DNA of 64,000 bases from Sinonovacula constricta (Eukaryota; Mollusca; Bivalvia; Cardiida; Solecurtidae). The stretch is from assembly GCA_007844125.1 (NCBI GenBank), contig CM017562.1:60904529-60968528 (forward strand), read 5' to 3'. A program made the position numbers and the translations under genes. Position 1 is the stretch's first letter. The number at the start of each line of letters is the position of its first letter. A model generated the notes under the pieces. The model was not told the DNA's origin, did not search any database, and saw only the letters and a program-made list of their open reading frames with translations. Positions 10,201 to 57,625 of the stretch are shown here, in pieces.

Positions 10201-10201
10201 G

Positions 10202-11319: not shown

Positions 11320-11587
11320 CACGGAGTGACAACTGTCGACCGAACAAATAACAATCATGGGTTACACCTAATATGTATGGAATTCCTACTCCCGATGCAA
11401 GATGCTCCGTATTTATTTGCAATGTTACTTAAGACAAAATCAACATTTATCACAGTAAAAAAATGCAAACATATTATAGATTTTTATCATACTCCTCGAC
11501 ATAACTCGCTTTGGGATTGCCGTAAAGTAGTAGAATCATCCCCTGACAAGGAATAAAACGAATTGATTTGATTCTGTCGTCAGTTAC

Positions 11588-34305: not shown

Positions 34306-34860
34306 CTGAGCTACAGTTTTTAATCAATCTTCATCAGACTTGGTCTGAATGTTTGTCTGTATTATATCTTGCATGAGTTCATAATTGGGTCACCTGGGGT
34401 CAAAACCTAGGACAAAGGTCAATTATTTTTTTTTTAATCTTGTGAACACACTAGAGACCACATTTATAGCCCAATCTTCACCAAATTTGGTCAGAATAAC
34501 TTTCTAAATGAAATCTTGAATGATTTCATAACTGGGTCACATAGAGTCAAAAAGTAGATCAATAGGTCAAATTATAGAAAACGCTTGTTAACACACTAGA
34601 GGTCAGAGGGTTTATTGCCCAATCTTCAGCAACTTTTGTCAGAATCTTTGCCTGCATGAAATCTTAGATGAGTTTGTTATTGGGTCATGTGGGGTCAAAA
34701 AGCAGGTCACTAGGTCAAATCCTAGAAAAACGTAGTGAACAAACAAGCGGCAACATTTAGAGTCCAGTCATCACTGAGCTTGGGCAGAAGGTTTGCTTGC
34801 ATGAAATCTTGCATAAGTTCTTACCTGGATCATGCTGGATCAAAAATTAGGTCACTATCC
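34306..34860. repeat. Dispersed ~120-bp repeat, about four diverged tandem units
   Basis: Units carry GCCCAATCTTCA, TTTGGTCAGAAT, GAAATCTTG, ATGAGTT, TGGGTCA and GGGGTCAAAA in constant order, with strong divergence between copies. A single unit occurs at 20455-20560. Sequence of this kind is common in bivalve genomes (from memory). Not coding. Confidence 0.75.
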
Positions 34861-35119
34861 AGACATTTGTTTGGGGCCTTCCTCCACCAATAATTAGCTG
34901 AACGTGGTGGGACGCCTGTGGCGTAGTGGTAAAGTCGCTGATTTGTAACTCCTGACTGCTTAGCCTCGCACCGCATGGCTTTGAGTCGCGTTCGGGGTGA
35001 AAGACTTAATGTGCGAAGGTCTTCCAGCTGACTTGCAGTGCGCCAGTGGTTCTACCAAGACATGTGCTGGGGTCTTCCTCCACCAAAAAGCTGGATGTTG
35101 CTTTAATTAAAAAACTAAA
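34860..35119 (+). mobile_element. tRNA-derived SINE (copy 1) preceded by a SINE tail fragment
   Basis: From about 34908 a tRNA-like head shows box A (GGCGTAGTGGTAAAGTCG) and box B (CTTTGAGTCGCGTTC). A body follows with GGTCTTCCAGCTGACTTGCA, GCGCCAGTGGTTCTAC and TCTTCCTCCACCAAAAAGCT, ending near ATTAAAAAAC. A related element is at 51958-52215. Just before it, 34860-34905 is a second fragment of the same 3' body (TTTGGGGCCTTCCTCCACCA). Confidence 0.85.
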
Positions 35120-35551
35120 CATTAGCTGAATATCACCTATATGGCCATGACTGTGTCCATGTGATGTAACAAAAAAACAACAAAAACAGTCTTGGTTTCA
35201 GTAGTACTCATACATGGAGCATTGACTGTATTATGTGTGCTTGTGATATATACACTTTATATTACCCCTCCACCTGCTCAGCACACATTGATCAGACATC
35301 AATAAGGCACGTCAATAATGACTATTTAGTACCTGCACTATTTCCTGCTAAGGCTTTATCAATATGACAACATACATTTTCATGTTGCAGTTAGAAAATT
35401 GCTTACAATAAAAATGTATTAACTATTATAATTGTTTTAAGATTGATTATTGTAGTTCATTTCATTATCCAATTCCTATTCTTCTATTTTATTTCTCCAT
35501 TGGTTGGCCATTCAAGATCTTGAAGTTGAGGTTGATATTTGTGTGTTTTAG

Positions 35552-35619
35552 GATCAACATGGCTGTTCCTGTTGTGTCAGAGCTGTACAACAAGTTCCAA
35601 GAGGCCCAGAAGTATGCAG
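35552..35619 (+). CDS. elovl2/5: Elongase exon 1 (start codon)
   Basis: Acceptor GTGTGTTTTAG ends at 35551; 7 bases of 5' UTR, ATG at 35559, donor GTAAGC at 35620. Encodes MAVPVVSELYNKFQEAQKYA plus one base of the Asp21 codon. No upstream in-frame start is available within the exon. The exon's 3' part and its donor are tandemly repeated downstream (35574-35905). Confidence 0.85.
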
Positions 35620-38600
35620 GTAAGCTCTATAGTGTCAGAGCTATACAACAAGTTCCAAGAGGCCCAGAAGTATGCAGGTAAGCTCTTTTGTGTCAGAGCT
35701 ATACAACAAGTTCCAGGAGGCCCAGAAGTATGCAGGTAAGCTCTATAGTGTCAGAGCTGTACAACAAGTTCCAAGAGGCCCAGAAGTATGCAGGTAGGCA
35801 CTATAGTGTCAGAGCTATACAACAAGTTCCAGGAGGCCCAGAAGTATGCAGGTAGGCACTATAGTGTCAGAGCTATACAACAAGTTCCAAGAGGCCCAGA
35901 AGTATACACTGTATGGTATCATGTAAGGTGTTCAAGACATGCTATACAAAGTTAAGGTAGCACTATCTCTGCTTCAAGAAGACACCATCTCCAGATAAGT
36001 GAAATACTGTTGGTAGGATGATAAAGCCACTAAACTATCAATCACTCGACCATCTTTAAATTTTCAGTGAATTTATAAAAACAGATCGCTCCATTTTCAA
36101 ACTGATTAGGCACATTTCTGCCAGAAAGTGTATTTACATGACAGTTGTTACATAATCAGGTTAATAAGTTACTTGTCAGTAAATAATTGAACTATTTTAA
36201 TTCCAAAATTATTGATAGATATCAAAACTCAAGATGTTGATATTTGTGTGCTCAGATCCCCGTACCAAAGACTGGCCTATGTTATGGAGCAATCCTATCC
36301 CTGTGTGGATCCTTACAGCCTCATACCTGGTGTTTGTATTGTATGCCGGTCCACGGTTCATGCAGAATAGGAAACCATACTCTCTACAGGGCTTCATGGT
36401 CGTTTACAACCTCGGACTGGTGGTCATGTCAACATGGATGTTCATAGAAGTAAGTTATTTGATTCACATGAGAAAATGACTCTAAGGGTGTGAATATGTT
36501 GACTGGAAGATTGTGAATATGCTGACTGGAAGACTGTGAATGTGCCAACAGGAAGACTGAATGTGCTGATCAGAAGACTTGGTGTGCTAAATGGAAGACT
36601 GGAAGATTGTGAATGTGCTGACTGGAAGATTGTGAATGTGCTGACTGGAAGATTGTAAATATGCTGACTGGAAGATGGTGAATGTGCTGACCGAGAGATT
36701 GTGAATATGCTGACTGGAGGATTGTAAATGTGCTGACTGGAAGATTTTGAATGTGCTGACTGGAAGATTGTGAATGTGCTTACTGTAAGACTGAATATTC
36801 CAACTGTAAGACTTGGTAGGCTGACTTGGATGACTGTGAATGTTCTGACTGGAATACTGTTGGTGTGCTATCTGGAAGATGGTGAATATGCTGATTAGAA
36901 GACTATGAATGTCCTGACTGAAAGAATGAATATCCTGACTGGAGGACTGGAGGTTTGCTGAATGGGAGATTGTTGGTGTGCTGTCCGGAAGACGGAATGT
37001 CCTGACTGGAAGTCTGTGAATGTGCTGACTGGAAGACTGAATATGCTGACTGGAAGACTGTGAATGTGCTGACTGGAAGACTGAATATGCTGACTGGAAG
37101 ACTGTTGGTGTGCTGTCTGGAAGACTGAATGTGCTGACTGGAAGTCTGTGAATGTATTGACTGGAAGACTAATATGCTGACTGGAAGACTGTTGGTGTGC
37201 TATCTGGAAGACTGAATATGCTGACTGGAAGACTTAATACGCTGACTGGAAGACTGTTGGTGTGCTGTCTGGAAGACTGAATGTGCTGACTGGAAGACTT
37301 AATATGCTGTCTGGAAGACTGTTGGTGTGCTGTCTGGAAGACTGAATGTGCTGTCTGGAAGACTGTGAATGTGCTGACTGGAAGACTAAATGTGCTGACT
37401 GGAAGACTATTGCTGTGCTGGTTTAACTCTGTGCTTATTAGCAATAATTAGGAAATAAGGTTGGTCTAGATCAGGATCTAGGCTATTTGCTACGTAATCT
37501 TTATAAGCATGTCTTATTACAAATGCTTTGCTTGGTATAAAAATTGCCATTTATTTTGTCATTTAAGATTTAGCAGCTTCACTAAATAATGATTAAAGTT
37601 CATTATACATATTCTTAGTAAGAGTTAAATGAACCATAGAACCATTGGTGCATGAAATCACGAGTCTGTAGACTACAGAATAATCAATGTTGCTTCTGTC
37701 TTCTTATGGCTAATGGTGGTCCTTGAATCATGAAGCTCATGAATTATTCCACACTAAACACTAGCTAAGTGATTCATTTAAAACTACAGTAAGAAACTTA
37801 AAAAAATGTTCTTGCACTTCAAACAGACAGGCATCATTACTTTATTTTTGTTGTTCATTATTCTGCTCATATATTTATATAAGTTAACTTCTGTTTAGTT
37901 ATTAGTTTATTGCAAACAAATATTTGCAAAAGTAACAAGATCATGATAAGACAGCTGGCTGATCTGGATCTACATTATTTGCAGATTCCAAGTCAACTGG
38001 TGCTTTATGGGCTAAGGGGCAAACTTAAGTTGTAATTATATGGTCAGTTATATATAATGTGACAATAATCAGGGTATGCCTCAATTTCACCTACTTTCCT
38101 CTTGCATTAGGTCTTGGCTAAAACTTGTCATTATCATACACAGCAAAGGTGTCTTATTAAGACTTACATAACCAGTCACTTATCACAGCTTTGTTTGGGT
38201 TTGTATGATTTTTGCAAATCTCTGCCATTACAAACACAATCTAATAACTGTGTATTGTGTATACATTCTGAGATTTTACTGTAAACACAAGTTTTCTTAT
38301 TTGTGGCCATTGCACAAATAAAGTAACCATGCCTGTAGTTACAGTTTAATTATATTGTTCTGCATTTCACAAATATTTAAAGCTTAATTTTCTGACATTT
38401 TATTAATAACAGTTCTGGTATAATTTACACTGCTTAGGCTTCTTGTAGGGGCGGGCAGCATAAGGACCGATAAATTGACTTGCATATTATGAAACTAACT
38501 ATTCATCCTTGTATTCTCAACATGACATCTGTTTAAGTAGACTTTATCTTCCTCCAGTGAACCCCATCATCTTATGCATTTGCAATTATTACACTATGTG

Positions 38601-41600
38601 TTATAACATATCTAAGGAAACAGTTTTCTGTTTGATATTGCTTAGTTGCATTTTAGGACATTTTATTTCGTATTCATCTGCAAATCACTCCTGATGTTTT
38701 ATAATTACTTGGTCAGAAAACTAAACTACTTTACACATTTTTATTGTTTGGTAACCCTTGTCATGTATGCATGTATGATTACATTCTGAAAATAATATCT
38801 TGTGCTTTCTTTTGTTTGGTTTGTAATACCATTGCCTGTAAGGGTAATGTGGTTTTAAGCTCGGAAAAATCATTGTTCTACTGTGGCATTAGAATACTGC
38901 TAATTACCAAACCACTAGCAATCAATGGCCTGTTCACATTTTACAGTTGATGAACTTGATCGATTTTAAGCTGTGAACATTAATCGGTGAAGCGACAAAT
39001 ACTGAAAATCTATGGGAATAATTGTTTTTATTAGTTATGTGATTGTATAAATTGGTGACAGTTTTGAGAAAAAAAAGTTGGTTCAATGATATAAATTGTC
39101 CATATATATATATATACCTTTTCTTCTTTCTGGAAATGTTCACACTTAAATTTTCTGCTTTTTCAAGAGTTAAATCTAATAGTTGCACTCTTTATATATG
39201 TGCAAATGTTCATGGGTGCTCCCATATTAATATTAAATGTTGGCAAATATGTAAAGAGAGCAGTTGTGTTTTACTCTTGAAATGAAAAAATTGCCAAAAA
39301 ACTTAAATTAGTGCAAATTTTACCAAACATTTGAATACTAAAATGATACTTGAACATTCAACATCTTTCCAGATATTTTGAATGTTCACTTAGAATGCTT
39401 GTATAAAAATAGCATTTTTTCATTTTATTTTTTGACTTCATAGATTTGAAGATTTTTGGACATTTGATTCTCCTAACTTCTTGTATTCAATCCGCTACAC
39501 TAGATTAGTTATTTGTTTAAAACATTATGCTAAGGCTACATAACCTTTTGATAGATTAGTAAATAGTTTAGATCCAGTTATTTAATAATTTACTTAGCTT
39601 TAGTCATTTGTTATCAACAGACTAACAGATAACCTTAAAGTTTACTAGTTGCACAGCTTTTAGTCCAGTTTGCTGAATCAATCTAACTGATGCTCAGTTT
39701 CCTTAGACTCTTTTGCTGACTCAAGCCAAATATTGCTTAGTTACCCTAGTCTTATTTGCTGACTCACGCCAAATATTACACAGTTTCCCTTAGTCTTATT
39801 TGCTGACTCACGCCAAATATTACACAGTTTCCCTTAGTCTTATTTGCTGACTCAAGCCAAATATTACACAGTTTCCTTAGTCTTATTTGATGACTCAAGC
39901 CAAATATTACACAGTTTCCTTAGTCTTATTTGCTGACTCAAGCCAAATATTACACAGTTTCCTTAGTCTTATTTGCTGACTCAAGCCAAATATTACACAG
40001 TTTCCTTAGTCTTATTTGATGACTCAAGCCAAATATTACACAGTTACCCTAGTCTTATTTGCTGACTCACGCCAAATATTACACAGTTTCCTTAGTCTTA
40101 TTTGCTGACTCAAGCCAAATATTACACAGTTTCCTTAGTCTTATTTGATGACTCACGCCAAATATTACACAGTTTCCTTAGTCTCATTTGCTGACTCAAG
40201 CCAAATATTACACAGTTTCGTTAGCCTCATTTGCAGACTCAAGCCAAATATTACACAGTTTCCTTAGTCTTATTTGATGACTCAAGCCAAATATTACACA
40301 GTTTCCCTTAGTCTTATTTGCTGACTCAAGCCAAATATTACACAGTTTCCCCTAGTCTTATTTGCTGACTCAAGCCAAATATTACACAGTTTCCCCTAGT
40401 CTTATTTGCTGACTCAAGCCAAATATTACACAGTTTCCCCTAGTCTTATTTGCTGACTCACGCCAAATATTACACAGTTTCCTTAGTCTTATTTGATGAC
40501 TCAAGCCAAATATTACACAGTTTCCTTAGTCTTATTTGCTGACTCAAGCCAAATATTACACAGTTTCCTTTGTCTCATTTGCAGACTCAAGCCAAATATT
40601 ACACAGTTTCCTTAGTCTTATTTGATGACTCAAGTCAAATATTACACAGTTTCCTTAGTCTCATTTGCAGACTCAAGCCAAATATTACACAGTTTCCTTA
40701 GTCTTATTTGATGACTCAAGTCAAATATTACACAGTTTCCTTAGTCTCATTTGCTGACTCAAGCCAAATATTACACAGTTTCCCTTAGTCTTATTTGCTG
40801 ACTCAAGCCAAATATTACACGGTTTCCCCTAGTCTTATTTGCTGACTCAAGCCAAATATTACACAGTTTCCCCTAGTCTTATTTGCTGACTCAAGCCAAA
40901 TATTACACAGTTTCCCCTAGTCTTATTTGCTGACTCACGCCAAATATTACACAGTTTCCTTAGTCTTATTTGATGACTCAAGCCAAATATTACACAGTTT
41001 CCTTAGTCTTATTTGCTGACTCAAGCCAAATATTACACAGTTTCCTTAGTCTCATTTGCAGACTCAAGCCAAATATTACACAGTTTCCTTAGTCTTATTT
41101 GATGACTCAAGTCAAATATTACACAGTTTCCTTAGTCTCATTTGCTGACTCACGCCAAATATTACACAGTTTCCCTTAGTCTTATTTGCTGACTCAAGCC
41201 AAATATTACACAGTTTCCCTTAGTCTTATTTGCTGACTCAAGCCAAATATTACACAGTTTCCCCTAGTCTTATTTGCTGACTCAAGCCAAATATTACACA
41301 GTTTCCCCTAGTCTTATTTGCTGACTCAAGCCAAATATTTCACAGTTTCCCCTAGTCTTATTTGCTGACTCAAGCCAAATGTTACACAGCCTGTTGTGCC
41401 TTATACATGGTATCTAGTTTCTGTATCTATCTACTCATGCAGGCATGTAAACTGAATCAATTATTTATTCTTTTGTCTCAATATTTCAATTTCTACATTA
41501 ATTTACAGCCACATGTCAGGAAAAGGTAGAAGTAAATGTATGCTTGTGTAATTCTATTTGAAAACAAAAGATTAGCAAAAAGATCTTTATAACTTAACTT

Positions 41601-44600
41601 CATCTGATTCGTAGTAATTTGTCAACGAAACGCCTGTACTTATTTTGAATCTTGAAATCGAGGTTAAACTCTGTTTTGATTTTCTGTTAATTTTATATTG
41701 TAGTATGTATTGTTAAAGGGACCTAATTTATTGGGATTTATATTATTTGTCGGTTGGAGATAAGTATTTTTTGTTTTAGGATCCTAACTTATCAAGCTTT
41801 ATGTTATGTCTGTTCCAGATTAAATATTGTTATAGGGTCCTAACTTATCAAGCTTTATGTTATGTCTGTTCCAGATTATATATTATAGGGTCCTAACTTA
41901 TCAAGCTTTATGTTATGTCTGTTCCAGATTATATATTGTTATAGGGTCCTAACTTATCAAGCTTTATGTTATGTCTGTTCCAGATTATTTTTTGTTATAG
42001 GATCCTAACTTAGCAGGCTTTATGTTATGTCTGTTCCAGATTATATATTGTTATAGGGTCCTAACTTATCAGACTTTATGTTATGTCTGTTCCAGATTAT
42101 TTTTTGTTATAGGATCCTAACTTAGCTGGCTTTATGTTATGTCTGTTCCAGATTATATATTGTTATAGGGTCCTAACTTATCAGACTTTATGTTATGTCT
42201 GTTCCAGATTATATATTGTTATAGGGTCCTAACTTATCAGACTTTATCTTATGTCTGTTCCAGATTATATATTGTTATAGGGTCCAAACTAATCAGACTT
42301 TATGTTATGTCCGTTCCAGATTATATATTGTTATAGGGTCCTAACTTATCAGACTTTTTGTTATGTCCATTTCAGATTATATATTGTTATAGTGTCCTAA
42401 CTTATCAGACTTTTTGTTATGTCCGTTTCAGATTATATATTGTTATAGGGTCCTAACTTATCAGACTTTATGTTATGTCTGTTCCAGATGATATTTTGTT
42501 ATAGGGTCCTAACTTAGCAGGCTTTATGTTATGTCTGTTCCAGATTATATATTGTTATAGGGTCCTAACTTATCAGACTTTTTGTTATGTCCGTTTCAGA
42601 TTATATATTGTTATAGGGTCCTAACTTATCAGACTTTATGTTATGTCTGTTCCAGATGATATTTTGTTATAGGGTCCTAACTTAGCAGGCTTTATGTTAT
42701 GTCTGTTCCAGATATATATTGTTATAAGGTCCTAACTTATCAAGCTTTATGTTATGTCTGTTCCAGATTATATATTGTTATAGGGTCCTAACTTATCAGA
42801 CTTTATGTTATGTCTGTTCTAGATTATATATTGTTATAGGGTCCTAACTTATCAGACTTTATGTTATGTCTGTTCTAGACTATATATTGTTATAGGGTCC
42901 TAACTTATCAGACTTTATGTTATGTCTGTTCTAGATTATATATTGTTATAGGGTCCTAACTTATCAGACTTTATGTTATGTCTGTTCTAGACTATATATT
43001 GTTATAGGGTCCTAACTTATCAGACTTTATGTTATGTCTGTTCTAGACTATATATTGTTATAGGGTCCTAACTTATCAGACTTTATGTTATGTCTGTTTC
43101 AGATTATATATTGTTATAGGGTCCTAACTTATCAGACTTTATGTTATGTCTGTTCTAGACTATATATTGTTATAGGATCCTAACTTATCAGACTTTATGT
43201 TATGTCTGTTCCAGATATATATTGTTATAGGGTCCTAACTTATCAGACTTTATGTTATGTCTGTTTCAGATTATATATTGTTATAGGATCCTAACTTAGC
43301 AGGCTTTATGTTATGTCTGTTCCAGATATATATTGTTATAGGGTCCTAACTTATCAGACTTTATGTTATGTCTGTTTCAGATTATATATTGTTATAGGAT
43401 CCTAACTTATCAGACTTTATGTTATGTCTGTTCTAGACTATATATTGTTATAGGGTCCTAACTTATCAGACTTTATGTTATGTCTGTTTCAGATTATATA
43501 TTGTTATAGGATCCTAACTTATCAGACTTTATGTTATGTCTGTTCTAGACTATATATTGTTATAGGATCCTAACTTATCAGACTTTATGTTATGTCTGTT
43601 TCAGATTATATATTGTTATAGGATCCTAACTTATCAGACTTTATGTTATGTCTGTTCTAGACTATATATTGTTATAGGATCCTAACTTATCAGACTTTAT
43701 GTTATGTCTGTTCCAGGTTATATATTGTTATAGGGTCCTAACTTATCAGACTTTATGTTATGTCTGTTTCAGATTATATATTGTTATAGGATCCTAACTT
43801 ATCAGACTTTATGTTATGTCTGTTTCAGATTATATATTGTTATAGGATCCTAACTTATCAGACTTTATGTTATGTCTGTTTCAGATTATATATTGTTATA
43901 GGATCCTAACTTATCAGACTTTATGTTATGTCTGTTTCAGGTTATATATTGTTATAGGATCCTAACTTATCAGACTTTATGTTATGTCTGTTTCAGATTA
44001 TATATTGTTATAGGATCCTAACTTATCAGACTTTATGTTATGTCTGTTTCAGGTTATATATTGTTATAGGATCCTAACTTATCAGACTTTATGTTATGTC
44101 TGTTTCAGATTATGTATTGTTATAGGGTCCTAACTTATCAGACTTTATGTTATGTCTGTTTCAGATTATATATTGTTATAGGATCCTAACTTATCAGACT
44201 TTATGTTATGTCTGTTTCAGATTATGTATTGTTATAGGGTCCTAACTTATCAGACTTTATGTTATGTCTGTTTCAGATTATATATTGTTATAGGGTCCTA
44301 ACTTATCAGACTTTTTGTTATGTCTGTTCCAGATTATATATTGTTATAGGGTCCTAACTTATCAGACTTTATGTTATGTCTGTTCTAGACTATATATTGT
44401 TATAGGATCCTAACTTATCAGACTTTATGTTATGTCTGTTCCAGATTATATATTGTTATAGGGTCCTAACTTATCAGACTTTATGTTATGTCTGTTCCAG
44501 ATTATATATTGTTATAGGGTCCTAACTTATCAGACTTTATGTTATGTCTGTTCTAGATTATATATTGTTATAGGATCCTAACTTATCAGACTTTATGTTA

Positions 44601-47600
44601 TGTCTGTTCCAGATTATATATTGTTATAGGGTCCTAACTTATCAGACTTTATGTTATGTCTGTTTCAGATTATATATTGTTATAGGATCCTAACTTATCA
44701 GACTTTATGTTATGTCTGTTCCAGATTATATATTGTTATAGGGTCCTAACTTATCAGACTTTATGTTATGTCTGTTCTAGATTATATATTGTTATAGGAT
44801 CCTAACTTATCAGACTTTATGTTATGTCTGTTCCAGATTATATATTGTTATAGGGTCCTAACTTATCAGACTTTATGTTATGTCTGTTCCAGATTATATA
44901 TTGTTATAGGATCCTAACTTATCAGACTTTATGTTATGTCTGTTTCAGATTATACTGAGTATAACAGCCTTGGAATACAATTGGTTATGTGCTCCATACA
45001 ATGAAGAGACTCGCAAAGATCCTCGCGAGTACAGGGTTAGTTCTTCCAGACAATAAAGCTATGTGATAGCTTTTATTTTCCCATTTGCTGGTTACCTTAC
45101 ATTATTTCTTTTCTTTCTTCCCACATGTGATATATTTTCTCTGCAAAAATATTGTCAGTCATTTTAAAACTACTCATATAGTGTGTTTTATAACATGGCA
45201 TGCAATCAGTCGTTCTCACATTTAACAACTATTATAAACCAATAGAGATCAATTCTTGAACATTCCACAAAGAATCTTTAAACAGAGAAATGTTGTGTGA
45301 ATTATGAAGATATGAATCTTCCTTTCTCAGCATCATTAGTTAATGTCTTTCTTGCTGAAAACACCATTTTCACCATCCACAAACATAGGCCACTCTAATG
45401 GTTTTTCCTACAAGTAAAGAGTTAACATATAAGGACTTATTTTTTGGTTTTTGTGATATTGGAAATACATTTATGCACGAGTTCTGTGTCAATTTATTTG
45501 CACTTTAATATAACATTTTAATGGAAATTTTATGTACCTTTCAAACAAAGGTGTGTTGCTTCTGTTTATATTCATGCTGAGATACCAGTTGGGCTAATTA
45601 AAGTCTATTAAAAAGTACACAGCTTTGAACAAAAGCCTGCTTGCCATTAAAACATTGGTATGGATTTCTTAGGTGTCATTGTTTGTTCTACCAAACCATA
45701 GCACGTGCTGCACTTTGTTACTCACAGTGGACATTGGTGGATATTAATATTTGTTGTTTTTTTCTATTTAAATTGTGAATGAACAGTTGTCCCTGTCGCT
45801 GCATATAGTTCACAGTCATTGTTGACTTAATGTGAATGTTCAAAGACTTCATTATGAATGAACTATGGGATATTGTTCAAATTTAAATATACCATTTTTT
45901 ACACATGCAGAATAAACATAACTGGAGATTTATTTGTTGGTTTTTATTTTTACTTGCAAGATTATGCAAGATAAAAAGTTTATTGTATTTATCAACAATT
46001 TAGGCTGTCATAAAAAGTTTTTGTATACATATAATATTTTGCCCCAAATTATTTTACGGAACATGGCGCTTTGACCTTTTTTCTTATAACATTTTGTCAA
46101 CAGATTTTAAGGGTAAAAATGTCCCATGCAAATGGCAAGCTGTTGTATGTGCTTGCTTTATAAAAAGAAAACTTATTTCTGCCTGAACAGATAATTCCTT
46201 TCTAACTTAAGAGTTACCTGTACATTACGCATATATTATTCTATTAACTATCTGTTCAAGACCTTTCAGCTTCATATACTATGTTTTGTGTATATATGTA
46301 TTCTGAAAGTAGAAATAACAAGCAAAGTCTGTGAGGTGCTATTTGGTTTTTAGAATAAAGAAGTAGAATAAGAGATTTTAGATTGTCCCAGTGCAGATGT
46401 TCATTTTGGATGCAGTTTGCTTAACATTGTAAGTTTTAATTCATACCATTCTAAGCATGAATTGACTACTAAACAAATTCAGATCCAGGTCATTCAGCTT
46501 TTAGTTTTGCTGTTAAGTGTTTATCAATACATCTTGTTATTGATGCATGTAGTGGTTATCAGATTGCTAAGTCTTGTTAAGTGTTTATCAATTCATCTTG
46601 CTATTAATTCATCGAGTGGTTATCAGGTGATTGAGTCTTTGTTTAGTGTTTATCAATACAGCTTGCTATCAATTAATAGAGTGGTTATCAGATTCCAAAA
46701 CCTTGTTAAGTGTTATCAATATAGCTTGCTATCAATTCATAGAGTGGTTATCAGATTACTAAGTCTTTGTTAAGTGTTTATCAATACATATTGTTATCAG
46801 TACAAATGGTGGCTATCAGATTGCTAAGACCATGATTTAGGTTATTAACAAATGTAGTTGGCTAAGGATAAACAGAGGGATGATAAATCTCAATGTTTAA
46901 AAATTATTTGTCTGAAAACAATAAGTTTTAACAAAGATGTTGTTTATCATGTTCTGAAGGATTCATCATTTGCTAACATAACAGATTTCTATAAAAATGT
47001 CAACATATTAAGATAGGCTTTGTTAAGAATATTTTGAACATCCAATCATCATATGGTTGTAAAGTGACAATTTGTTTTCTTTCTGTAACATCTCTACTTG
47101 TAGAATTAAGCTTTCTACTCTTTTACTTAACAGCTGGCCAATATCCTTTGGTATTATGGCATCTCAAAGGCAATTGAACTGATGGACACGGTTCTGATGG
47201 TATTGAGGAAGAAGAACAACCAAATTACATTCCTTCATGTGTTTCACCATGCCACCATGCTCAACATTTGGTGGTGGGTGCCCACCTTCATCCCAGGAGG
47301 ACAGAGTAAGCTAACCTTTGCATAAGAAAAATAAACAAAATCATTGAATTAGCAAAACATTTAAACTAGAGTTTGTGAGTTATTTGTTATAGTAAATAAT
47401 CTCATCATTACATTTGATAACTCAATGATCACACTGATACCTCTGATAAGTCAAGGGCATTGAAGGGAGAGAGATTCTTCTTTCATACAGCAGTTAATGG
47501 TACTAAAGAGAGATACTCTTTCAATACAGTGGTTAATGGCATTGAAGAGAGGCACTCCTTAAATACAGCAGTTAAGTACATTGAAGAGAGATCTCGTTAA

Positions 47601-50600
47601 ATACAGCAGTTAAGTTCATAGAAGAGAGATACTCCTTAAATAGAGCAGTTACGGGATTTGAAGAGAGACGCTCCTTAAATACAGCTGTTATGGGGATTGA
47701 AGAGAGGCACTCCTTAAATACAGCTGTTATGGGGATTGAAGAGAGGCACTCCTTAAATACAGCTGTTATGGGGATTGAAGAGAGGCACTCCTTAAATACA
47801 GCTGTTATAGGGATTGATGAGAGGCACTCCATAAATACAGTGGTTAAGGACATTGAAGAGAGGCACTCCTTAAATACTAATGAATGTCTTCTGCCAGTAC
47901 TAATGTTCACAACATGGTGAGAGCTTTACTTGGTTGTTAGAAGCAGAACTAATATAGAATTGTATTTTCTTGTTCTAGAAATCATTTCTGTTTTGGGTTT
48001 CTTTGATTTTTGTTTATAGAAAAAAACTAGGTACCAACTAAAGACCTGTCTTTCGTGTTCCCCACAATTTTTATTGACCTCTTCTCCACTAAAAGCATTT
48101 ACCTATAAATTTTCATTGTGATGGAACAGATCTGTCACTGTATTACCTGATGTTGTTAGGACTCAGCCTCAGACCATTCTTGTCTCAAAGTTTCTCATAG
48201 ACAGGACTGATTGATCTTGATGTACCAGGGCTTGAACTCTTACCCTGCTGCCTTCCAAGAGATTGCATCCGAATTGCTTAGTATTTGATTACAACTTCAT
48301 ACACTGATATTAGTAATAACAAACAAAAAATTGTGTAGACTCATCAGATACCTTCTATCAGGGAACAAATAATCTTGGTCTAAACTATTGGCCTAAGCCT
48401 TATAAATATGGGAATGGCAGAGTAAAAGTTAAAGCACCAACAAATACTTTCACTCATATTCAGGAAAGGGGTTCATGAAAACCTAACGATCAATATTAAA
48501 GTCTTCAGGAAAAGTTGTGTTTTTTTATTGCCAATGTTACATGACAGATGCACCTAATAAAAGGCTGCCAGTTACAGCGTTCATTGGAGTATCACAAGTG
48601 ACCCATTTGAATTAGCTAAACCTTTACATCTTTGCCAGATTTTACATCACCCTTATAACTCTGAATATGTGCATAGGATGTACTCTTTTAGGCCCATTTG
48701 TAAATATTTCATATTTGTAGAAATGTCATTTTATTGCCAAATGTTTTTGTTTTACACTAACCCAAGCTCTGATTTGCTCAATGTAGTCTTACCTAGGCAA
48801 ATAGTGAAAATGTAGATTAGCTAGCTCTTAGTGGGAGCTCCATATGGGTGCTGGCTGATCAGATATTGTACTATTTGCTGCCAATCTCTATCGATAGGTT
48901 CAGTTACAATTTCATGTTGTTAGTAGATAATGAATCATTTATAATGAGTTATTATATCAGTATCACATCTAACAGAGGTGTAAAACAACCAGAGATTGGA
49001 AGGCTAGTCTGCCTATGTGAGGCTGGACAATTTTCATTGATAAAATAGTAAACCAAGCAGGTCCAATGGTTAGTTCACTCATCTCTGACTTTACAAATTA
49101 TAACCATATCTGTCATTTATTTATTTATGTTAAATACCTTTCCATATTCCTTTACAAGATCATCTCAGCCAGCTGAATAAAATTAAAACACCAATATACC
49201 TTAAATGGTTGATGGTTACTAGTGCTGATTGCATGACAAGTTGACATCTTAGCCTGATAAGCAAGAAGGGATCATGTTTAGACTAATAGTGTAGATCAAG
49301 ATCAGCCAGCTTCTGCCACTGGTAGCTTTCTGACCAGGTTTTATACAGTTTACTGCTAAGTATTCAGTACATTTTACTATATGTGCATATAGTTATTATT
49401 GGATAACTGAGAATAAAAAGATTGGTTGTTACAAGATTTAGCATGCTAAGGGACAGACTGTCCACTATTAGGGTACAGGTAAATCTACATTTGGGCACTG
49501 GGACAGACTGTCCACTATTAGGGTACAGGTAAATCTACCTTTGGGCACTTGGGACAGACTGTCCACTATTAGGGTACAGGTAAATCTACCTTTGGGCTTT
49601 TGGGACAGACTGTCCACTATTAGGGTACAGGTAAATCTACCTTTTGGCACTTTTTTTATACAGTACATTGTATATAACCATGGTGTTTTCATTGTTGTAC
49701 ACTTTTCATAACATGTGCATTGTTTTTACCTGAATGTTTAGAAAATGGCGCTAAAATTTAAAAGTACAAGTATCTGAGACTGAATCCTGGTAACAAACTC
49801 ATGATTAGTCAACAGTTATACAGAAGAATGTAAATCATAAATTCTTAAAAATAATAGTTACCCTTTGGGTTTTCCACATTCATTATGCATTAAAACATAC
49901 GACTCATTGGGACTACTGTTACCTTTTAGACAATTCTTATTTATACATTTATGTCAGTACTGATGGTTGACAGAGTTTGCTATTGGATGTAGAACAAGGC
50001 TTCTATATTTGAATGCTAAACTATATAAAGGAAATCTGGGAGGAGAACTTTCAGAAAAGCTGTTTGTTCTGTTAGGGTCTGTACTGTATACCTGATAGGT
50101 GATAATAAGTTTACATTAATAAAAATGGTGCATATGTAATGGTAAGAGAATTGACCACTAATTTTCTTCACATGTTTTTATTTTCTATTTATCGTCTTAT
50201 AAAATGTTCCTTTAAATAGTATAATCAAGGACATAGTGAGTGCAGAATAGATTTATGCATCTCAGTTAAACTCAACAGAGTTGATATGCATTAAAAGCCA
50301 CAAAGATTGTTCTTCACTGTGTTGCATGACTCAAACAGAGAAAAAGTAGAGCAGATTGGCACTGAAAAATGCGACCTTTGGCACAGATGAGACATCTTTA
50401 TTGTGAATGGCATGCTTTTACCATGTAATTAATGTGTGAAGCATGTTATAACAAGGTGTTAAAGTGATAGTTTGACAGAACTACATACAATTAGAAGATA
50501 ATAATGAACTGCTTTACATAGCATAGGTCTCTACATAACATTAAAGCATCTTGTAAGAACAATAGAGATATCTATTAACTTTTACTAGTGCAATGAACTT

Positions 50601-53600
50601 AAGGAAAAGAGTCAGTAATTTTTGTTTCTTGAAAGTCAAGTTCTCATTTTATCAATAGAGAAGGATATTTTTTTTTTATAAAAACTGGTTAATGTAGTAG
50701 ACAAGGGGATTGCATTGTGATCTTTGTATACTGTTTATGGTAATTTTGTAATTAAAACAATCCTGTTATAAATGCACTCTTAGCTCAGATAAAATACTGG
50801 CACATTTGGTTTGGTTTATGTTCAGTTTTTCTAGATGTTTGTTTTATCAGCCCATACATTCTCCCCTGATTTGTCTGTCAGTCACCCATGGTTCAATTGT
50901 CAGTCCAGAGTTAGTGTATTACTAAGTCTCTGTTCACCCTTAGCTTGCTAAGCATGTATTTATATGAGTTTGTCAAGCAGTGTAGATCCAGATTAGCCAG
51001 CTCCTTGTTGGGAAGTAACTGAGCAAGATCAGCACAATTTGCAGCTGCGTCTCTGGCAATATGTCTAGGCACCTATGTTGTCTCACTGTTAGAATATGAC
51101 TAATAATGAGTCACAGTTATAAACAGTTGTAAAAAGCTAATGGTTAAACTATGGCATGATAGCCCTAAGTCTACCACCTTTTGTTTAAAACTTTTAAATT
51201 TAGCCTTACCTGATCACTTTATGATAAGCAGGCTATAGGGTGAAAAATCAGACTGTTCCCACCTTTGGAGCACGCACTGACATACAATTGAAGGCCAACT
51301 GATTATATAGGTTGTGTGCTCTGTGCATGTGTCAGTGGACTTTGTACCTGGCCAGACCACTGCATGACACAAGTTTTTCGTCCTCTACCTGACATAGTTC
51401 CCCTGAACATTGGACATTGTCATCTTCAAACAACCCTTGTTGATTGTCCTCCTAGTAGTGAAGTAGCCTACATCTAGATGGAGCGTACCTGTTTTTGTAC
51501 AGAAAGTCCAGAATATAGGTTATTGTTACTACTTCAGGTAGCTGAGGACATGTTTGCTATCATTAACTAAATGTGCTATTAATACTGCCTGACTGAGCAC
51601 TGCCTATTAATATTGATTTATCCAGTATTTACCCTGTAAAATGCCTATTCAATGAAAGGAATCATGGCAGATGTCTGTACAAAGGTCCATACCTTTAAAC
51701 GAATTTATTTACCAATAGAATGTCATAAATGATTTCTATGCATTGCTTATTTTTCAGTGGCTTCAGCTTAGTAAAAAGATTGCAGCCATCACTTTCTTGA
51801 ATAAGAAGTAAACAAAATATATAAGGCTTTATTAGGAGACCGTTCATTGTCCATTGAGAATATTTTGATGAGCAACATGTCCATAAGGCAATAACTTGTG
51901 GTGCAATACGTTATATAAGTTTTACATACATGTGTTCTTTAAGACATACATCACAATAACAGGAGGAGCATAGTGGTAGAGTTGCTGCTTTGTATCTCCT
52001 CTGACAGCTTAGCCTCTCACAGCGTGGGTTCAAGTCCAGTTCGGGGCAAAGGAGTTTATGTGGGAAGGTCTTCCAGCTGATGTGCTGTGCGCCAGTGGTT
52101 CTACCCAGACATTTGTCTGGGGACTCTTCCTCCACCAAAAAGCTGGACGTTGCTATAATGATCATAACTGGTCGCTGCAATGTATTTAAAAAAAGAAAAA
52201 AAAAAAGAAGAAAAAATCAATAAAAAAAAAATCACAGTAATAGTGATAACTTTTTTTCAACTCACTTTAATGTCCATTGGGCTTCCTCCACATATGGACT
52301 GAAGAGTTCATCTACAAAAACTTTGCACCTTGCCAAATAATTATAGAAAAACATTATTTACACAAGAAGACCAGAATCCTTTTGATTAGTATAATACCAA
52401 ATATTTCTTTTAAACAGGAAAAAAACAAAATCTTAGAGCCTCTCTACATTTAAGTTGATTGATAAGCTGGTGGTTGAATGTTAATTACATTAGTGGTCAG
52501 TGTATGAGTCCATCAATCATCCTATGTGTTGGCGACACACAGAAGGCAGGTCTGGATTCTCAGCATGTTTTGTCTCCTTAGTCCCATACACCTTCCTTTA
52601 TGTGTTTCTACACGATGTGCACCTACCCAGCTAGTGCTTTAGGGAGAAATTCCATGATGTGTACTGGCCCAGGTAGTACTTAAGGCAGACACTACATAAT
52701 GTGTGTGACCCAGGTAGTGCTTTAGGATGACACTACATGATATGTACCAACCCAGGTAGTGCTTTAGGGTGACACTACATGATGTGCACCTACCCAGGTA
52801 GTGCTTTAGGGAGACACTCCATGATGTGAACTGGCCCAGGTAGTACTTTAGGGTGACACTCCATGATGTGTACTGGCCCAGGTAGTACTTTAGGGTGACA
52901 CTCCATGATGTGTACTGGCCCAGGTAGTACTTTAGGGTGACACTCCATGATGTGTACTGGCCCAGGTAGTACTTTAGGGTGACACTCCATGATGTGTACT
53001 GACCTAGGTAGTACTTTAGGGTGACACTCCATGATGTGTACTGACCCAGGTAGTACTTTAGGGTGACATTACATGATGTGTACTGACCTAGGTAGTACAT
53101 TAGAATGACACTCCATGTGTACTGACCCAGGTAGTACTTTAGAATGACACTCCATGATGTGTACTGGCCCAGGTAGTACTTTAGGGCGACACTCCATGAT
53201 GTGTACTGGCCCAGGTACTACTTTAGGGAGACACTACATGATGTGTACTGGCCCAGGTAGTACTTTAGGGTGACACTACATGATGTGTACCGACCAAGGT
53301 AGTACTTTAGGGTGACACTACATGATGTGTACCGACCCAGGTAGTGCATTAGGGTGACACTCCATGATGTGTACTGGCCCAGGTAGTACTTTAGGGTGAC
53401 ACTACATGATGTGTACTGACCCAGGTAGTACTTTAGGGTGACACTACATGATGTGTACCGACCCAGGTAGTGCATTAGGGTGACACTCCATGATGTGTAC
53501 TGGCCCAGGTTGTGCTTTAGGGAGACACTCCATGATGTTTACTGACCTAGGTAGTACTTTAGGATGACACTCCATGATGTGTACTGGCCCAGGTAGTGCT

Positions 53601-56600
53601 TTAGGGTGACACTACATGATGTGTACTGACCCAGGTAGTACTTTAGAATGACACTCCATGGGGTGTACCAACCCAGGTAGTGCTTTAGGGAGATACTCCA
53701 TGATGTGTACTGACCTAGGTAGTACTTTAGGGTGACACTCCATGATGTGTACTGACCCAGGTAGTACTTTAGGGTGACACTCTATGATGTGTACTGACCT
53801 AGGTAGTACTTTTGGGTGACACTCCATGATGTGTACTGACCCAGGTAGTACTTTTGGGTGACACTCCATGATATGTACCAACCAAGGTAGTACTTTAGGG
53901 TGACACTCCATGATGTGTACTGACCCAGGTAGTACTTTAGGGTGACACTTCATGGGTGTACCAACCCAGGTAGTACTTTAGGGAGACACTCCATGATGTG
54001 TACCAACCAAGGTAGTACTTTAGGATGACACTCCATAATGTGTACTGACCCAGGTAGTACTTTAGGGTGACACTTCATGGGTGTACCAACCCAGGTAGTA
54101 CTTTAGGGAGACACTCCATGATGTGTACTGACCTAGGTAGTGCTTTAGGGTGACACTCCATGATGTGTAATGACCCAGGTACTACTTTAGGATGACACTC
54201 CATGATGTGTACTGACCCAGGTAGTACTTTAGGGTGACACTCCATGATGTGTACTGACCCCGGTAGTACTTTAGGGTGACACTCTATGATGTGTACTGAC
54301 CTAGGTAGTACTTTTGGGTGACACTCCATGATGTGTACTGACCTAGGTAGTACTTTAGGGTGACACTCTATGATGTGTACTGACCTAGGTAGTACTTTTG
54401 GGTGACACTCCATGATGTGTACCAACCAAGGTAGTACTTTAGGGTGACACTCCATGATGTGTACTGACCCAGGTAGTGCTTTGGGGTGACACTCCATCCA
54501 GTGTACCAACCAAGGTAGTACTTTAGGGTGACACTCCATGATGTGTACCAACCAAGGTAGTACTTTAGGGTGACACTCCATGATGTGTACTGACCCAGGT
54601 AGTGCTTTTGGGTGACACTCCATCCAGTGTACCAACCAAGGTAGTACATTTGGGTGACACTCCATCCAGTGTACCAACCAAGGTAGTACTTTTGGGTGAC
54701 ACTCCATGATGTGTACCAACCAAGGTAGTACTTTAGGGTGACACTCCATGATGTGTACTGACCCAGGGAGTGCTTTTGGGTGACACTCCATCCAGTGTAC
54801 CAACCAAGGTAGTACTTTAGGGAGATACTCCATGATGTGTACTGACCCAAGTAGTACTGTAGGGTGACACTTCATGGGTGTACCAACCCAGGTAGTACTT
54901 TAGGGAGACACTCCATGATGTGTACCAACCAAGGTAGTACTTTAGGATGACACTCCATAATGTGTACTGACCCAGGTAGTACTTTAGGGTGACACTTCAT
55001 GGGTGTACCAACCCAGGTAGTACTTTAGGGAGACACTCCATGATGTGTACTGACCTAGGTAGTGCTTTAGGGTGACACTCCATGATGTGTACTGACATAG
55101 GTAGTACTTTAGGGTGACACTCTATGATGTGTACTGACCTAGGTAGTACTTTAGGGTGACACTCCATGATGTGTACTGACCTAGGTAGTACTTTAGGGTG
55201 ACACTCCATGATGTGTACTGACCTAGGTAGTACTTTAGGGTGACACTCTATGATGTGTACTGACCTAGGTAGTACTTTTGGGTGACACTCCATGATGTGT
55301 ACCAACCAAGGTAGTACTTTAGGGTGACACTCCATGATGTGTACTGACCCAGGTAGTGCTTTAGGGTGACACTCCATGATGTGAACTGACCTAGGTAGTA
55401 CTTTAGGGTGACACTCCATGATGTGTACTGACCTAGGTAGTACTTTAGGATGACACTACATGATGTGTACTGACCCAGGTAGTACTTTAGGGTGGCGCTT
55501 CATGGGTGTACCAACCCAGGTAGTACTTTAGGGAGACACTCCATGATGTGTACCAACCAAGGTAGTACTTTAGGGTGACACTCTATGATGTGTACTGACC
55601 CAGGTAGTACTTTAGGGTGACACTCTATGATGTGTACTGACCTAGGTAGTACTTAAGGGTGACACTCCATGATCTGTACTGACCTAGGTAGTACTTTAGG
55701 GTGAGACTCCATGATGTGTACTGACCTAGGTAGTACTTTAGGGTGACACTACATGATGTGTACTGACCTAGGTAGTACTTTAGGGTGACACTCCATGATG
55801 TGTACTGACCTAGGTAGGACTTTAGGATGACACTCCATGATGTGTACTGACCCAGGTAGTACTTTAGGGTGACACTACATGATGTGTACTGACCTAGGTA
55901 GTACTTTAGGATGACACTCCATGATGTGTACTGACCTAGCTAGTACTTTAGGTTGACACTCCATGATGTGTACTGACCCAGGTAGTACTTAAGGGAGACA
56001 CTCCATGATGTGTACTGACCTAGGTAGTACTTTAGGGTGACACTCCATGGGGTGTACTGACCCAGGTAGTACTTTAGGGTGACACTACATGATGTGTACC
56101 GACCCAGGTAGTACTTAAGGGAGACACTCCATGATGTGTACTGACCTAGGTAGTACTTAAGGGTGACACTACATGATGTGTACTGACCTAGGTAGTACTT
56201 TAGGATGACACTCCATGATGTGTACTGGCCCAGGTAGTACTTTAGGGTGACACTACATGATGTGTACTGACCTAGGTAGTACTTTAGGGTGACACTACAT
56301 GATGTGTACTGACCTAGGTAGTACTTTAGGGTGACACTCCATGATGTGTACTGACCTAGGTAGTACTTTAGGATGACACTCCATGATGTTTACTGACCCA
56401 GGTAGTACTTAAGGGAGACACTACATAATTTGTACTGGCCCAGGTAGTGCTTTAGGGTGATACTCCATGATGTGTACAGACCTAGGTAGTGCTCACAACA
56501 CAACATTGTCATCAATTATTACTTTCTTAACAAATACAATTTAGATGTTTCTACATTTATGTTTCTGCATTTTAGCCTGGTTTGGCTCGTGCCTAAACTG

Positions 56601-57625
56601 CCTGGTCCACGTGGTCATGTACTCGTACTACGGTCTGGCAGTCATTCCATCTCTAAGAGACAAACTCTGGTGGAAGAAATACATCACCACATTTCAACTG
56701 GTAAGTATCTAAGGGAAATAAATCTTACTTAAGTTTAAAGTGAATGAGAATGAGTTACTTTCAGAAAAAATTTAATTCAGTGTTTGCAGTATGAATGTAC
56801 ATAATTTGGGACTGTGAGAAACTGCTTGTAAACTGTTACTTAAAAGGAAAATTAATCTCATTTTAACATGCAAAAATGAAGAAATGAATAAATGACAAAA
56901 TATTGTCTCTTAATTCAAACTTTATTTACATGTATTACTAGCTGTGAATCTCCTTTCATAAATATTTTATGTACCCTGCATCATTCTCACCTTTTGTTTA
57001 TTATTTCAGATTAAAAGACAAATGAGGTCTACTTATACAGTATATTATTTTCATATGATTTTTCATCAGTGTTTCACCAGTTAATTTTCTCCAATACAGG
57101 GGCACCAGTGGCTGTGTCTTGTAATCTTGTAACAGCCTTTTATGATGTGGGTTCGGTGTCTGGAAGTGGCATAATTTGCAATGGGCATTTTATAATTAAA
57201 ATAATATTGAAACAGTTCTTTACATCTTGGGCACTCTGACATTTAGTAAAAGAGCATGTTGTTTTTGTTTCACATATGTGTAACTTATTTTCCTGATTCA
57301 TTACAAAAGCCCTCTATTGTTGCTGTTGTAGGTGCAGTTTGTGATTACATTCAGCCACTCAGCCCAGACTTACGTGACCGGCTGCGACTTCCCTCTGTGG
57401 GGCCAATACCTTCTCATGGGCTACATGCTCATTATGTTGTGCCTGTTTGGAAACTTCTATATCCAGTCCTATATCAACCGCAAGTCCAAGTCTCATCCCA
57501 AGAAAACCGACACCAATGGGCATATATCTGAATCTTGGGAGCAAAATGGTACTGCTAATGGAAATGGAAAATATGTAAACAGAAATTCAAAAAGTCATAA
57601 AAATGGTGTAGTCAAAAGACATTAG
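35559..57625 (+). CDS. elovl2/5: Very-long-chain/polyunsaturated fatty acid elongase, ELOVL2/5-like
   Basis: Condenses malonyl-CoA with acyl-CoA in the ER membrane, the first and rate-limiting step of the elongation cycle (family knowledge). Six coding exons join in phase: 35559-35619, 36256-36449, 44949-45035, 47134-47305, 56576-56700, 57332-57625; 933 bases, 310 residues, the usual ELOVL length. Motifs: KAIELMDT (126-133), histidine box HVFHH (149-153), NCLVHVVMYSYYG (179-191), TTFQLVQF (209-216). Gln144, five residues before the histidine box, and MLNIWW after it favour the PUFA-elongating ELOVL2/5 group; the WPMLW segment and Asn/Gly-rich tail recall ELOVL4, so subfamily is less sure than family. 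Hydrophobic segments include about 35-52, 67-84, and several from 155 to 260. Residues 261-310 form a polar basic tail ending KRH. Introns 1, 2 and 4 hold large tandem arrays. Confidence 0.9.
35574..35905. repeat. 58-bp repeat of exon 1 with its splice donor, 6 copies
   Basis: Units start at 35574, 35632, 35690, 35748, 35806 and 35864; the last is cut short after 42 bases. Each carries 46 bases of coding exon 1 followed by the donor: GTAAGC in units 1-3, GTAGGC in units 4-5, absent in unit 6. Coding parts differ at only a few positions (CTGTAC/CTATAC, CCAAGA/CCAGGA). Only the first donor gives an open frame: reading on from unit 1 meets TAA inside the donor of unit 2. Units 2-5 are therefore decoy donors unless splicing is restricted. 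Confidence 0.95.
35906..36040. mobile_element. Short dispersed element, copy C
   Basis: Begins exactly where the 58-bp array breaks off. Shares GGTATCATGTAAGGTGTTCA, GCACTATCTCTGCTTCAAG, CATCTCCAGATAAGTGAAAT and ACTGTTGGTAGGATGATAAA with the copies at 23214 and 25623. It lies in intron 1 of the elongase. Confidence 0.75.
36256..36449 (+). CDS. elovl2/5: Elongase exon 2
   Basis: Acceptor TTGTGTGCTCAG ends at 36255, donor GTAAGT at 36450. Phase 1 entry completes Asp21 (G|AT); encodes residues 21-85, DPRTKDWPMLW through VVMSTWMFIE, including the first two membrane segments. Ends in phase 0. The 15 bases GTTGATATTTGTGTG before the acceptor are identical to those before exon 1's acceptor. Confidence 0.93.
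36487..37415. repeat. Irregular ~19-24-bp array, about 40 units (intron 2)
   Basis: Starts 38 bp after the exon 2 donor. Units are GCTGACTGGAAGACTGTGAA-like, with short forms (GAATATGCTGACTGGAAGA) and forms containing GTTGGTGTGCTGTCTGG. More regular from about 37000 onward, more decayed near the exon. The minus frame with SLPVS repeats is an artefact. Confidence 0.93.
37416..39650. other. Intron 2, unique-looking part
   Basis: AT-rich sequence between two arrays. No exon, RNA or mobile element is evident; short frames at 38509, 38744 and 39043 are hydrophobic, AT-driven and unsupported. Confidence 0.5.
39655..41393. repeat. 43-45-bp minisatellite, about 39 copies, with TGACTCA in most units (intron 2)
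   Basis: Units are CTTAGTCTTATTTGCTGACT, CAAGCCAAATATTACACAGT and TTCC(C). Ordered variants (GATGACTCA, GCAGACTCA, CACGCC, TCCCCTAG) recur as a block: the run around 40300-40640 is matched by 40780-41110, offset about 477 bp (11 units). The core TTTGCTGACTCA contains the AP-1 site TGACTCA and a Maf-type half site TGCTGAC. Degraded units begin near 39655. Confidence 0.96.
41770..44956 (+). repeat. 56-bp array repeating the exon 3 acceptor, about 56 copies (intron 2)
   Basis: Each unit contains GGGTCCTAACTTATC (branch-point-like CCTAAC), ACTTTATGTTATGTCTGTT(T/C)C, AG, then ATTATATATTGTTATAG. The branch A to AG distance is about 31 bases. Every copy I read keeps CAG or TAG at the acceptor position. 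The last copy is the functional acceptor of exon 3 (AG at 44947-44948), and exon 3 begins with the same ATTATA that follows the AG in all units. Copies at the 5' edge (41700-41830) are decayed; those from about 42800 on are nearly identical. Confidence 0.96.
44949..45035 (+). CDS. elovl2/5: Elongase exon 3
   Basis: Acceptor GTCTGTTTCAG ends at 44948, donor GTTAGT at 45036 (slightly weak). 29 codons in phase 0, residues 86-114: IILSITALEYNWLCAP then YNEETRKDPREYR. Lies immediately after the acceptor-repeat array. Choosing the previous acceptor-like copy, 56 bp upstream, would shift the frame and meet TGA at the fifth to seventh exon bases region, so the last AG must be used for a functional product. 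Confidence 0.9.
45036..47133. repeat. Intron 3, with a ~65-bp repeat of five units at 46507-46828
   Basis: Mostly unique AT-rich sequence. From 46507 to 46828, five diverged units share TGTTAAGTGTTTATCAAT, CTTGCTAT and GAGTGGTTATCAGATT. The rest holds no visible feature. The intron ends in TTTTACTTAACAG. Confidence 0.85.
47134..47305 (+). CDS. elovl2/5: Elongase exon 4 (catalytic histidine box)
   Basis: Acceptor TTACTTAACAG ends at 47133, donor GTAAGC at 47306. Residues 115-171 plus one base of Thr172: LANILWYYGISKAIELMDT, then RKKNNQITFLHVFHHATML and NIWWWVPTFIPGGQ. Contains the KxxExxDT motif and the HVFHH box that binds the catalytic metal or serves the condensation centre in this family. 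Confidence 0.96.
47485..47880. repeat. 39-bp repeat, about ten units (intron 4)
   Basis: Units share GGGGATTGAAGAGAGGCACT, CCTTAAATACAGC and TGTTAT. The four units at 47690-47830 are almost identical; flanking units are decayed. Minus-strand frame with SSIPITAVFKECL repeats is an artefact of the period being divisible by 3. Confidence 0.94.
47881..51957. other. Intron 4, left part; includes tRNA-like SINE relics and a small array
   Basis: AT-rich. At about 48195-48290 the minus strand shows GAGTTCAAGCCCTGG (box B-like) preceded by a box A-like stretch. At about 49056-49085 CCAATGGTTAGTTCACTC is box A-like on the plus strand. Both look like old tRNA-derived SINE fragments. The rest holds nothing I recognise apart from the array at 49450. 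Confidence 0.4.
49450..49652. repeat. 50-51-bp tandem repeat, 4 copies (intron 4)
   Basis: Units start with GGGACAGACTGTCCACTATT and continue AGGGTACAGGTAAATCTACC, TTTGGGC. Each begins with the perfect palindrome GGACAGACTGTCC. Units also contain CAGGTAAAT, a donor-like word. Confidence 0.95.
51958..52215 (+). mobile_element. tRNA-derived SINE (copy 2) with A-rich tail
   Basis: Box A (GGAGCATAGTGGTAGAGTTG) and box B (GGGTTCAAGTCCAG) are about 50 bp apart. Body blocks GGTCTTCCAGCTGATGTGC, GCGCCAGTGGTTCTACCCAG and TCCTCCACCAAAAAGCTGGA match the copy at 34908. The 3' end is A-rich (AAAAAAAGAAAAAAAAAAGA from about 52180). Better preserved than copy 1. The minus-strand open frame across it is antisense SINE. 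Confidence 0.9.
52645..56495. repeat. 42-bp minisatellite, about 90 copies (intron 4)
   Basis: Units are GTACTTTAGGGTGACACTCC, ATGATGTGTACTGACC and (C/T)AGGTA with subtypes: GGCCCAGG, GACCTAGG, CAACCAAGG and a CATCCAGTG form. A block near 53943 (short CTTCATGGGTG units) recurs at about 54865, offset about 922 bp (22 units), over at least 200 bases. The array ends 80 bp before exon 5. Long minus frames with MECHPKVLP repeats are artefacts of the 3n period. Confidence 0.97.
56576..56700 (+). CDS. elovl2/5: Elongase exon 5
   Basis: Acceptor TTTCTGCATTTTAG ends at 56575, donor GTAAGT at 56701. Completes Thr172 and encodes to Leu213: WFGSCLNCLVHVVMYSYYGL, then AVIPSLRDKLWWKKYITTFQ and L. Contains the NxxxHxxMYxYYG family motif and the first part of TxxQxxQ. 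Confidence 0.96.
57332..57625 (+). CDS. elovl2/5: Elongase terminal exon 6
   Basis: Acceptor TGTTGCTGTTGTAG ends at 57331; TAG stop at 57623-57625. Residues 214-310: VQFVITFSHSAQTYVTGCDF, then PLWGQYLLMGYMLIMLCLFG, NFYIQSYINR and a polar Asn/Gly/Lys-rich tail ending VVKRH. The tail lacks a canonical KKXX but is basic, as is usual for ER elongases. Confidence 0.96.
   Translation: MQFVITFSHSAQTYVTGCDFPLWGQYLLMGYMLIMLCLFGNFYIQSYINRKSKSHPKKTDTNGHISESWEQNGTANGNGKYVNRNSKSHKNGVVKRH

Follow-up and report, generated by a model that had tools for sequence, protein, structure and literature searches.

The fatty-acid elongase gene described here lies on the forward strand of a 64,000-nucleotide stretch of contig CM017562.1 (in the following called the window, to which all positions refer) and carries a long minisatellite across one of its intron-exon boundaries. 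The 3' end of intron 2 is made up of head-to-tail copies of a 56-bp unit that end in AG, and the end of the last copy is the acceptor of exon 3. A second, smaller array repeats the end of exon 1 together with its donor. The acceptor array looks like a large case of the junction duplication that is known from amphioxus under the name of mirage. It is probably a minisatellite of this type, the copies of which are mostly neutral and in which pairing of the splice sites across the exon favours the copy nearest to the exon.

Six coding exons on the + strand (Table 1) join to an open frame for a protein of 310 amino acids (aa), which belongs to the ELO family (Pfam ELO match: 228.7 bits, E=1e-67); NCBIfam gave no match, and the Rfam and tRNA scans of the 64-kb window were empty. 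As judged from the open joined frame, the acceptor of exon 3 coincides with the end of the last array unit. An earlier note on this DNA had taken this unit for the real acceptor, and it is indeed the only one that is predicted to give the full 310-aa protein. The only solved relative that was found, human ELOVL7 (6y7f; E=1.8e-59, query residues 15-270), aligns without a gap at the joint of exons 2 and 3, which supports the last acceptor as the putative protein-making site. The alignment is also gap-free at the joint of exons 1 and 2, with lower certainty as it begins six residues before this joint, and backs the first donor as the putative protein-making site more weakly.

Table 1. Positions of the elongase exons and of the two junction-spanning arrays in the window
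Feature	Position	Strand	Remark
Elongase exon 1, with the ATG inside, to the first donor	35552..35619	+	5' end is a guess from an AG
Donor array, 58-bp unit (46 exon 1 bases and 12 intron 1 bases)	35574..35905	+	tandem copies of the exon 1 end and donor
Elongase exon 2	36256..36449	+	
Decayed copy of the 56-bp unit, with CCTAAT and final AG	about 41703..41759	+	upstream of the array; nhmmer 41704-41754, E=2e-4
Acceptor array, 57 tandem 56-bp units (53-56 bp), AG-terminated	41763..44948	+	3' end of intron 2
Last unit, acceptor that keeps the reading frame	44893..44948	+	same sequence as five internal units
Elongase exon 3, 87 nt	44949..45035	+	
Elongase exon 4, holds HVFHH	47134..47305	+	
Elongase exon 5	56576..56700	+	
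Elongase last coding exon, to the stop	57332..57625	+	

Tandem Repeats Finder places the acceptor array at 41771-44954 (period 56, 57.0 copies, 94% matches). Anchored on their AG, the units number 57 plus one decayed copy, where about 56 had been noted before; that they are tandem 3' splice-site units ending at exon 3 is confirmed. Each unit runs from six bases that match the start of exon 3 exactly or nearly through an AT-rich stretch, TCCTAAC and a pyrimidine-rich stretch to the AG. The composition described in the earlier note holds: 31 bases separate the putative branch A of CCTAAC (column 25) from the G of the AG (column 56), and every copy has kept its AG (57/57). CCTAAC itself is present in 56/57 units, with CCAAAC in its place in unit 10. 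The repeat also spans the boundary as had been stated, with ATTATA, the first six bases of exon 3, exact at the start of 34 of the 57 units. Beyond these six bases, the unit shows no likeness to the exon (1614/2000 shuffles as good). The 57 units fall into 29 types and are about 96% like the consensus, as measured on the 53 units kept by a gap-free scan, which dropped units of other arrays as well. The decayed copy reaches a pairwise score of 52 as against at most 27 in 1000 shuffles, and no older copies are recognisable upstream of it (134/1000 shuffles as good).

The earlier note had claimed that use of any earlier AG would break the reading frame. For the final AGs of the 56 units before the last this holds, as each of them would run into a stop after 92 to 127 residues. 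The claim fails for an AG ending at 44909 inside the last unit, which would add 13 in-frame codons to exon 3. This AG, a type that was examined in the last unit alone, is weak (rough score -0.19 vs 2.62 for the last acceptor) and sits before the CCTAAC of that unit. All splice-site scores come from matrices of rough frequencies written from recall. On this scale the six acceptors of the gene span 0.25-3.45, and compared with the last unit 37/57 units score the same, 13/57 lower and 7/57 higher. By rough score, the unit acceptor is unexceptional among shuffles of the unit (63/500 as good, p=0.126), which weighs against signal strength.

The array at exon 1, which the earlier note had overlooked, holds five donors (after 35619, 35677, 35735, 35793 and 35851), followed by one truncated copy. 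GT is kept in 5/5 full units; three donors share an identical nine-base site with a score of 8.03, and two are weaker (6.19). The exon 1 donor is exceptional when compared to shuffles (0/500 as good). The frame is kept by the first donor only, and the other four lead to stops after 77, 40, 40 and 40 residues. In both arrays of the elongase gene, the site that gives the shortest exon is the productive one.

According to passages from two reports (PMC3087553; PMC3902484), the mirages of amphioxus are minisatellites of duplicated intron-exon boundaries and the genes splice normally. The likeness to what these passages describe is extensive: the repeats run in tandem across the boundary, such arrays occur at acceptors as well as at donors, many units keep the AG or GT (here 57/57 and 5/5), the gene is intact and the units turn over in concert. 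Both arrays show the structural mirage features that we tested. There are also differences from the mirages as described there. The mirage gene BflGb6 has 6 and 3 units in two haplotypes (PMC3902484), whereas the acceptor array has 57, and the 56-bp unit is, unlike mirage units, almost all intron and includes the branch-point-like CCTAAC. Moreover, the boundaries of the BflGb6 cluster are excluded from homogenisation, whereas here the unit at the exon end equals five internal units and the outer end has diverged. This exclusion is reported for one gene and is hardly a defining property of mirages. The host, too, is probably not a cephalochordate, since its interspersed repeats point to a bivalve; in a cephalochordate the array would simply count as a further mirage.

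Two other systems bear a partial resemblance, again judging from passages of the reports. In the polyubiquitin gene UBC, a tandem array of dual-specific splice sites is likewise set by the repeat unit, but there a single site within coding repeats has both donor and acceptor function, whereas the present array is intron without a usable donor (PMC10809524). Since no donor with a score of at least 2 occurs in the acceptor array and the best one reaches -1.33, the array is not of the UBC type by this rough score. The same holds for a recursive-splicing (ratchet) array, as the sequence CAG followed by GTTATA occurs in 3/57 units and has a donor score of -1.33. Human tandem repeats at exon-intron boundaries similarly alter the gene structure by tandem duplication of the boundary; they give rise to new introns, whereas here an existing intron grows (PMC2812944). 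For an earthworm metallothionein gene, abalone TSSK1 and C. elegans, the passages describe intronic minisatellites, none of them spanning a junction. Among the matches listed, boundary-spanning minisatellites with duplicated splice sites were found outside human in amphioxus only, most of the subscription literature being outside the search, and no mollusc or elongase case was among these matches. The first paper on mirages is reportedly that of Canestro et al. 2002, and Zhuo et al. 2007 are said to have dealt with introns from tandem arrays.

We suppose that the array began with the tandem duplication of a short segment, which covered the end of intron 2 together with the initial six bases of exon 3, and that slippage or unequal exchange of one or two units at a time then brought it to 57 copies. 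Among units 36-57, pairs that are two units apart differ by a mean of 1.30 bases vs 1.71 for neighbours, so blocks of two probably took part in the growth. Units closer to the exon are more like the last unit (Spearman -0.66) and more like the consensus (-0.40). Since five internal units have exactly the sequence of the last one, the working acceptor seems to belong to the exchanging pool, and exchange by itself would keep the signals fresh in copies without any selection on them. The copy next to the exon would be the working acceptor and the remaining copies intron without a selected job. They might be tolerated because the pairing of splice sites probably takes place across the exon first; the AG nearest to the donor of exon 3 would then be favoured. 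Long introns on either side (introns 2 and 3, with 8,499 and 2,098 nt) and the small size of exon 3 (87 nt) make such pairing probable. In long introns the sites closest across the exon are preferred, in short ones those closest across the intron, according to passages of a transcriptome-wide survey (PMC9225289). The array at exon 1 would fit the same logic, its shortest-exon copy being the one that keeps the frame. Actual use of the last AG, exon definition as its cause, neutrality of the copies and an origin of the array from the junction are all inferred; mainly use of the last site with some waste would be expected.

The gene is in any case rich in minisatellites, with eight arrays taking up 10,922 of its 22,074 bp (49%), so that the growth of such repeats is the rule here. 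Two of the 11 gene junctions tested sit in arrays, and Blast searches of the junctions with 60-base flanks against the window found repeats across the junction at these two only; additional matches to the queries for the exon 1 acceptor and the exon 2 donor stem from array sequence in their flanks. An excess of junction-spanning arrays is not shown by 2/11 junctions vs 49% array cover. The two arrays are what a minisatellite-rich gene would show when a duplication chances to take in a junction and splicing keeps to the copy on the exon side.

Conservation of the splice signals within the array does not settle whether the copies have a function. As 31/56 columns are invariant, two random columns are both invariant with a chance of 0.30, and the joint invariance of branch point and AG is matched by 3/56 registers (8/56 without units 1-3). 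When the branch point, the pyrimidine stretch and the AG are taken together by runs, 5/56 registers are as good (7/56 without units 1-3). The per-position comparison that the earlier note had proposed thus places AG and CCTAAC barely above the other columns, and conservation of AG and branch point was rejected as proof of function.

An RNA structure that hides the copies was considered and rejected as well. Between CCTAAC and AG, a hairpin of five pairs (CAGAC/GTCTG) can be drawn, in which no pair has changed on both sides among the 24 of the 57 units that were counted; three of the five pairs depart by unpaired cells only. Units 55-57 together with exon 3 have a slightly more stable fold than shuffles (z -1.78; 7/200 as good).

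Several observations weigh against a mostly neutral array that is spliced at its last copy. The register of branch point, pyrimidine stretch and AG is the lowest of all in distinct substitutions (1/56; 3/56 without units 1-3), and the column invariance (up to 17 rows, gap-free scans) is 0.75 here, slightly above that of each of eight control arrays (0.54-0.73). At most, this hints at some constraint on the splice-signal columns. Seven of the units outscore the last one. In the survey cited above, acceptors overall prefer the upstream site, less so under exon definition (PMC9225289), so that copies 56 and 55, which if used would give exons of 143 and 199 nt, may leak. Finally, a repeat end may have been recruited as the acceptor, in place of growth out of the junction.

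The array might alternatively be a splicing tuner, in which the copies compete for U2AF and U2 and divert some of the transcripts to premature stops, so that the output tracks the copy number. The 56 frame-breaking acceptors have the same or a similar rough score as the last one, and of the 67 matches to a CTRAC plus acceptor composite on the + strand of the window, 56 lie inside the array (- strand: 24). The lower variation of the splice-signal columns and the upstream preference of acceptors (PMC9225289) point in the same direction. However, similar arrays without junctions fill the gene, the conservation is near that of control arrays and amphioxus mirages are reported to splice normally (PMC3087553; PMC3902484). 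We therefore regard a tuner as unlikely. The chance is slimmer still that a fast-mutating array of 56 decoys sets the level of productive elongase splicing, each added unit diverting transcripts and the donor copies of exon 1 acting as a second dial. If this were true, a minisatellite would be a heritable dial on membrane-lipid metabolism. A titration or decoy device controlling the elongase, as proposed by the earlier note, is not supported: the conservation of the AG counts for little where 31/56 columns are invariant, arrays make up 49% of the gene and the last unit has the same sequence as five others. Its fallback, a neutral expansion in which the last AG is favoured by the exon, is the better reading and fits the reports on amphioxus mirages.

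It is also possible, if improbable, that an intronic minisatellite came first and that exon 3 took over its end unit as acceptor, by which an older site was shifted or replaced. The decayed outer copy indicates that the repeat is not brand new, and the unit is nearly all intron, with its six exon bases and no further likeness to the exon. Against such a capture, the identity of the repeat reaches six bases into the exon in 34/57 units, the array at exon 1 with its 46 coding bases demonstrates that the gene does duplicate its own junctions, and ELOVL7 aligns without interruption where exons 2 and 3 meet. An assembly artefact, with a wrong number or order of copies, is very improbable: a 3.2-kb array of such similar units is hard to resolve with short reads, but the 29 unit types occur in an ordered pattern with polarity and an intact gene surrounds the array, although the exact copy number may be off.

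Dozens of near-identical acceptors in one intron, the last alone being productive, amount to a natural contest in which pairing across the exon competes with pairing across the intron on a first-come basis, whereas such pairing rules are usually tested with few engineered sites. Five of the copies match the working unit letter for letter; if the last acceptor is the one in use, its choice must therefore rest on position and exon context and not on site strength alone. The occurrence of a donor array and an acceptor array in one gene tests one rule twice. If the host is a bivalve, as its repeats suggest, boundary minisatellites also occur outside amphioxus and could form wherever minisatellites abound.

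The window contains 24 merged arrays. The units of 14 others were tested for splice sites (28 tests), and no general excess of donors or acceptors was found that would mark these arrays as relics of splice junctions. The lowest shuffle fractions among the 28 tests belong to donors in 1-1495 (0.008) and 49450-49652 (0.034) and to an acceptor in 47485-47877 (0.028). The array at 1-1495 has a 49-bp unit, is cut by the left edge of the window and holds 17 exact copies of CTTAAG/GTGAGAC (the slash marks the putative splice position), a strong donor-like site. Should an exon lie just left of the window, this array might be the third that spans a junction.

Two further arrays lie in introns of the elongase gene. 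The one at 39695-41389 (43-bp unit, about 39 copies) shares intron 2 with the acceptor array, ends about 380 bp upstream of it and lacks a strong splice-like site. The one at 52614-56490 (42-bp unit, about 92 copies) occupies intron 4 and ends 85 bp before exon 5. The interspersed repeats at 34463-34729, about 34900-35130 and about 51970-52190 presumably resemble repeats and short interspersed elements (SINEs) that are common in bivalve genomes; a text search for such repeats found no paper. At 2292-2714, a frame with weak EF-hand matches (E=9e-5 and 2e-4, below the Pfam curated cut-offs) is a piece of another gene. The arrays at 10128-11354 and 31827-32885, with units of 33 and 45 bp, contain open frames of 408 aa (- strand) and 352 aa (both strands), respectively, which are probably due to the unit length alone, since both lengths are multiples of three.

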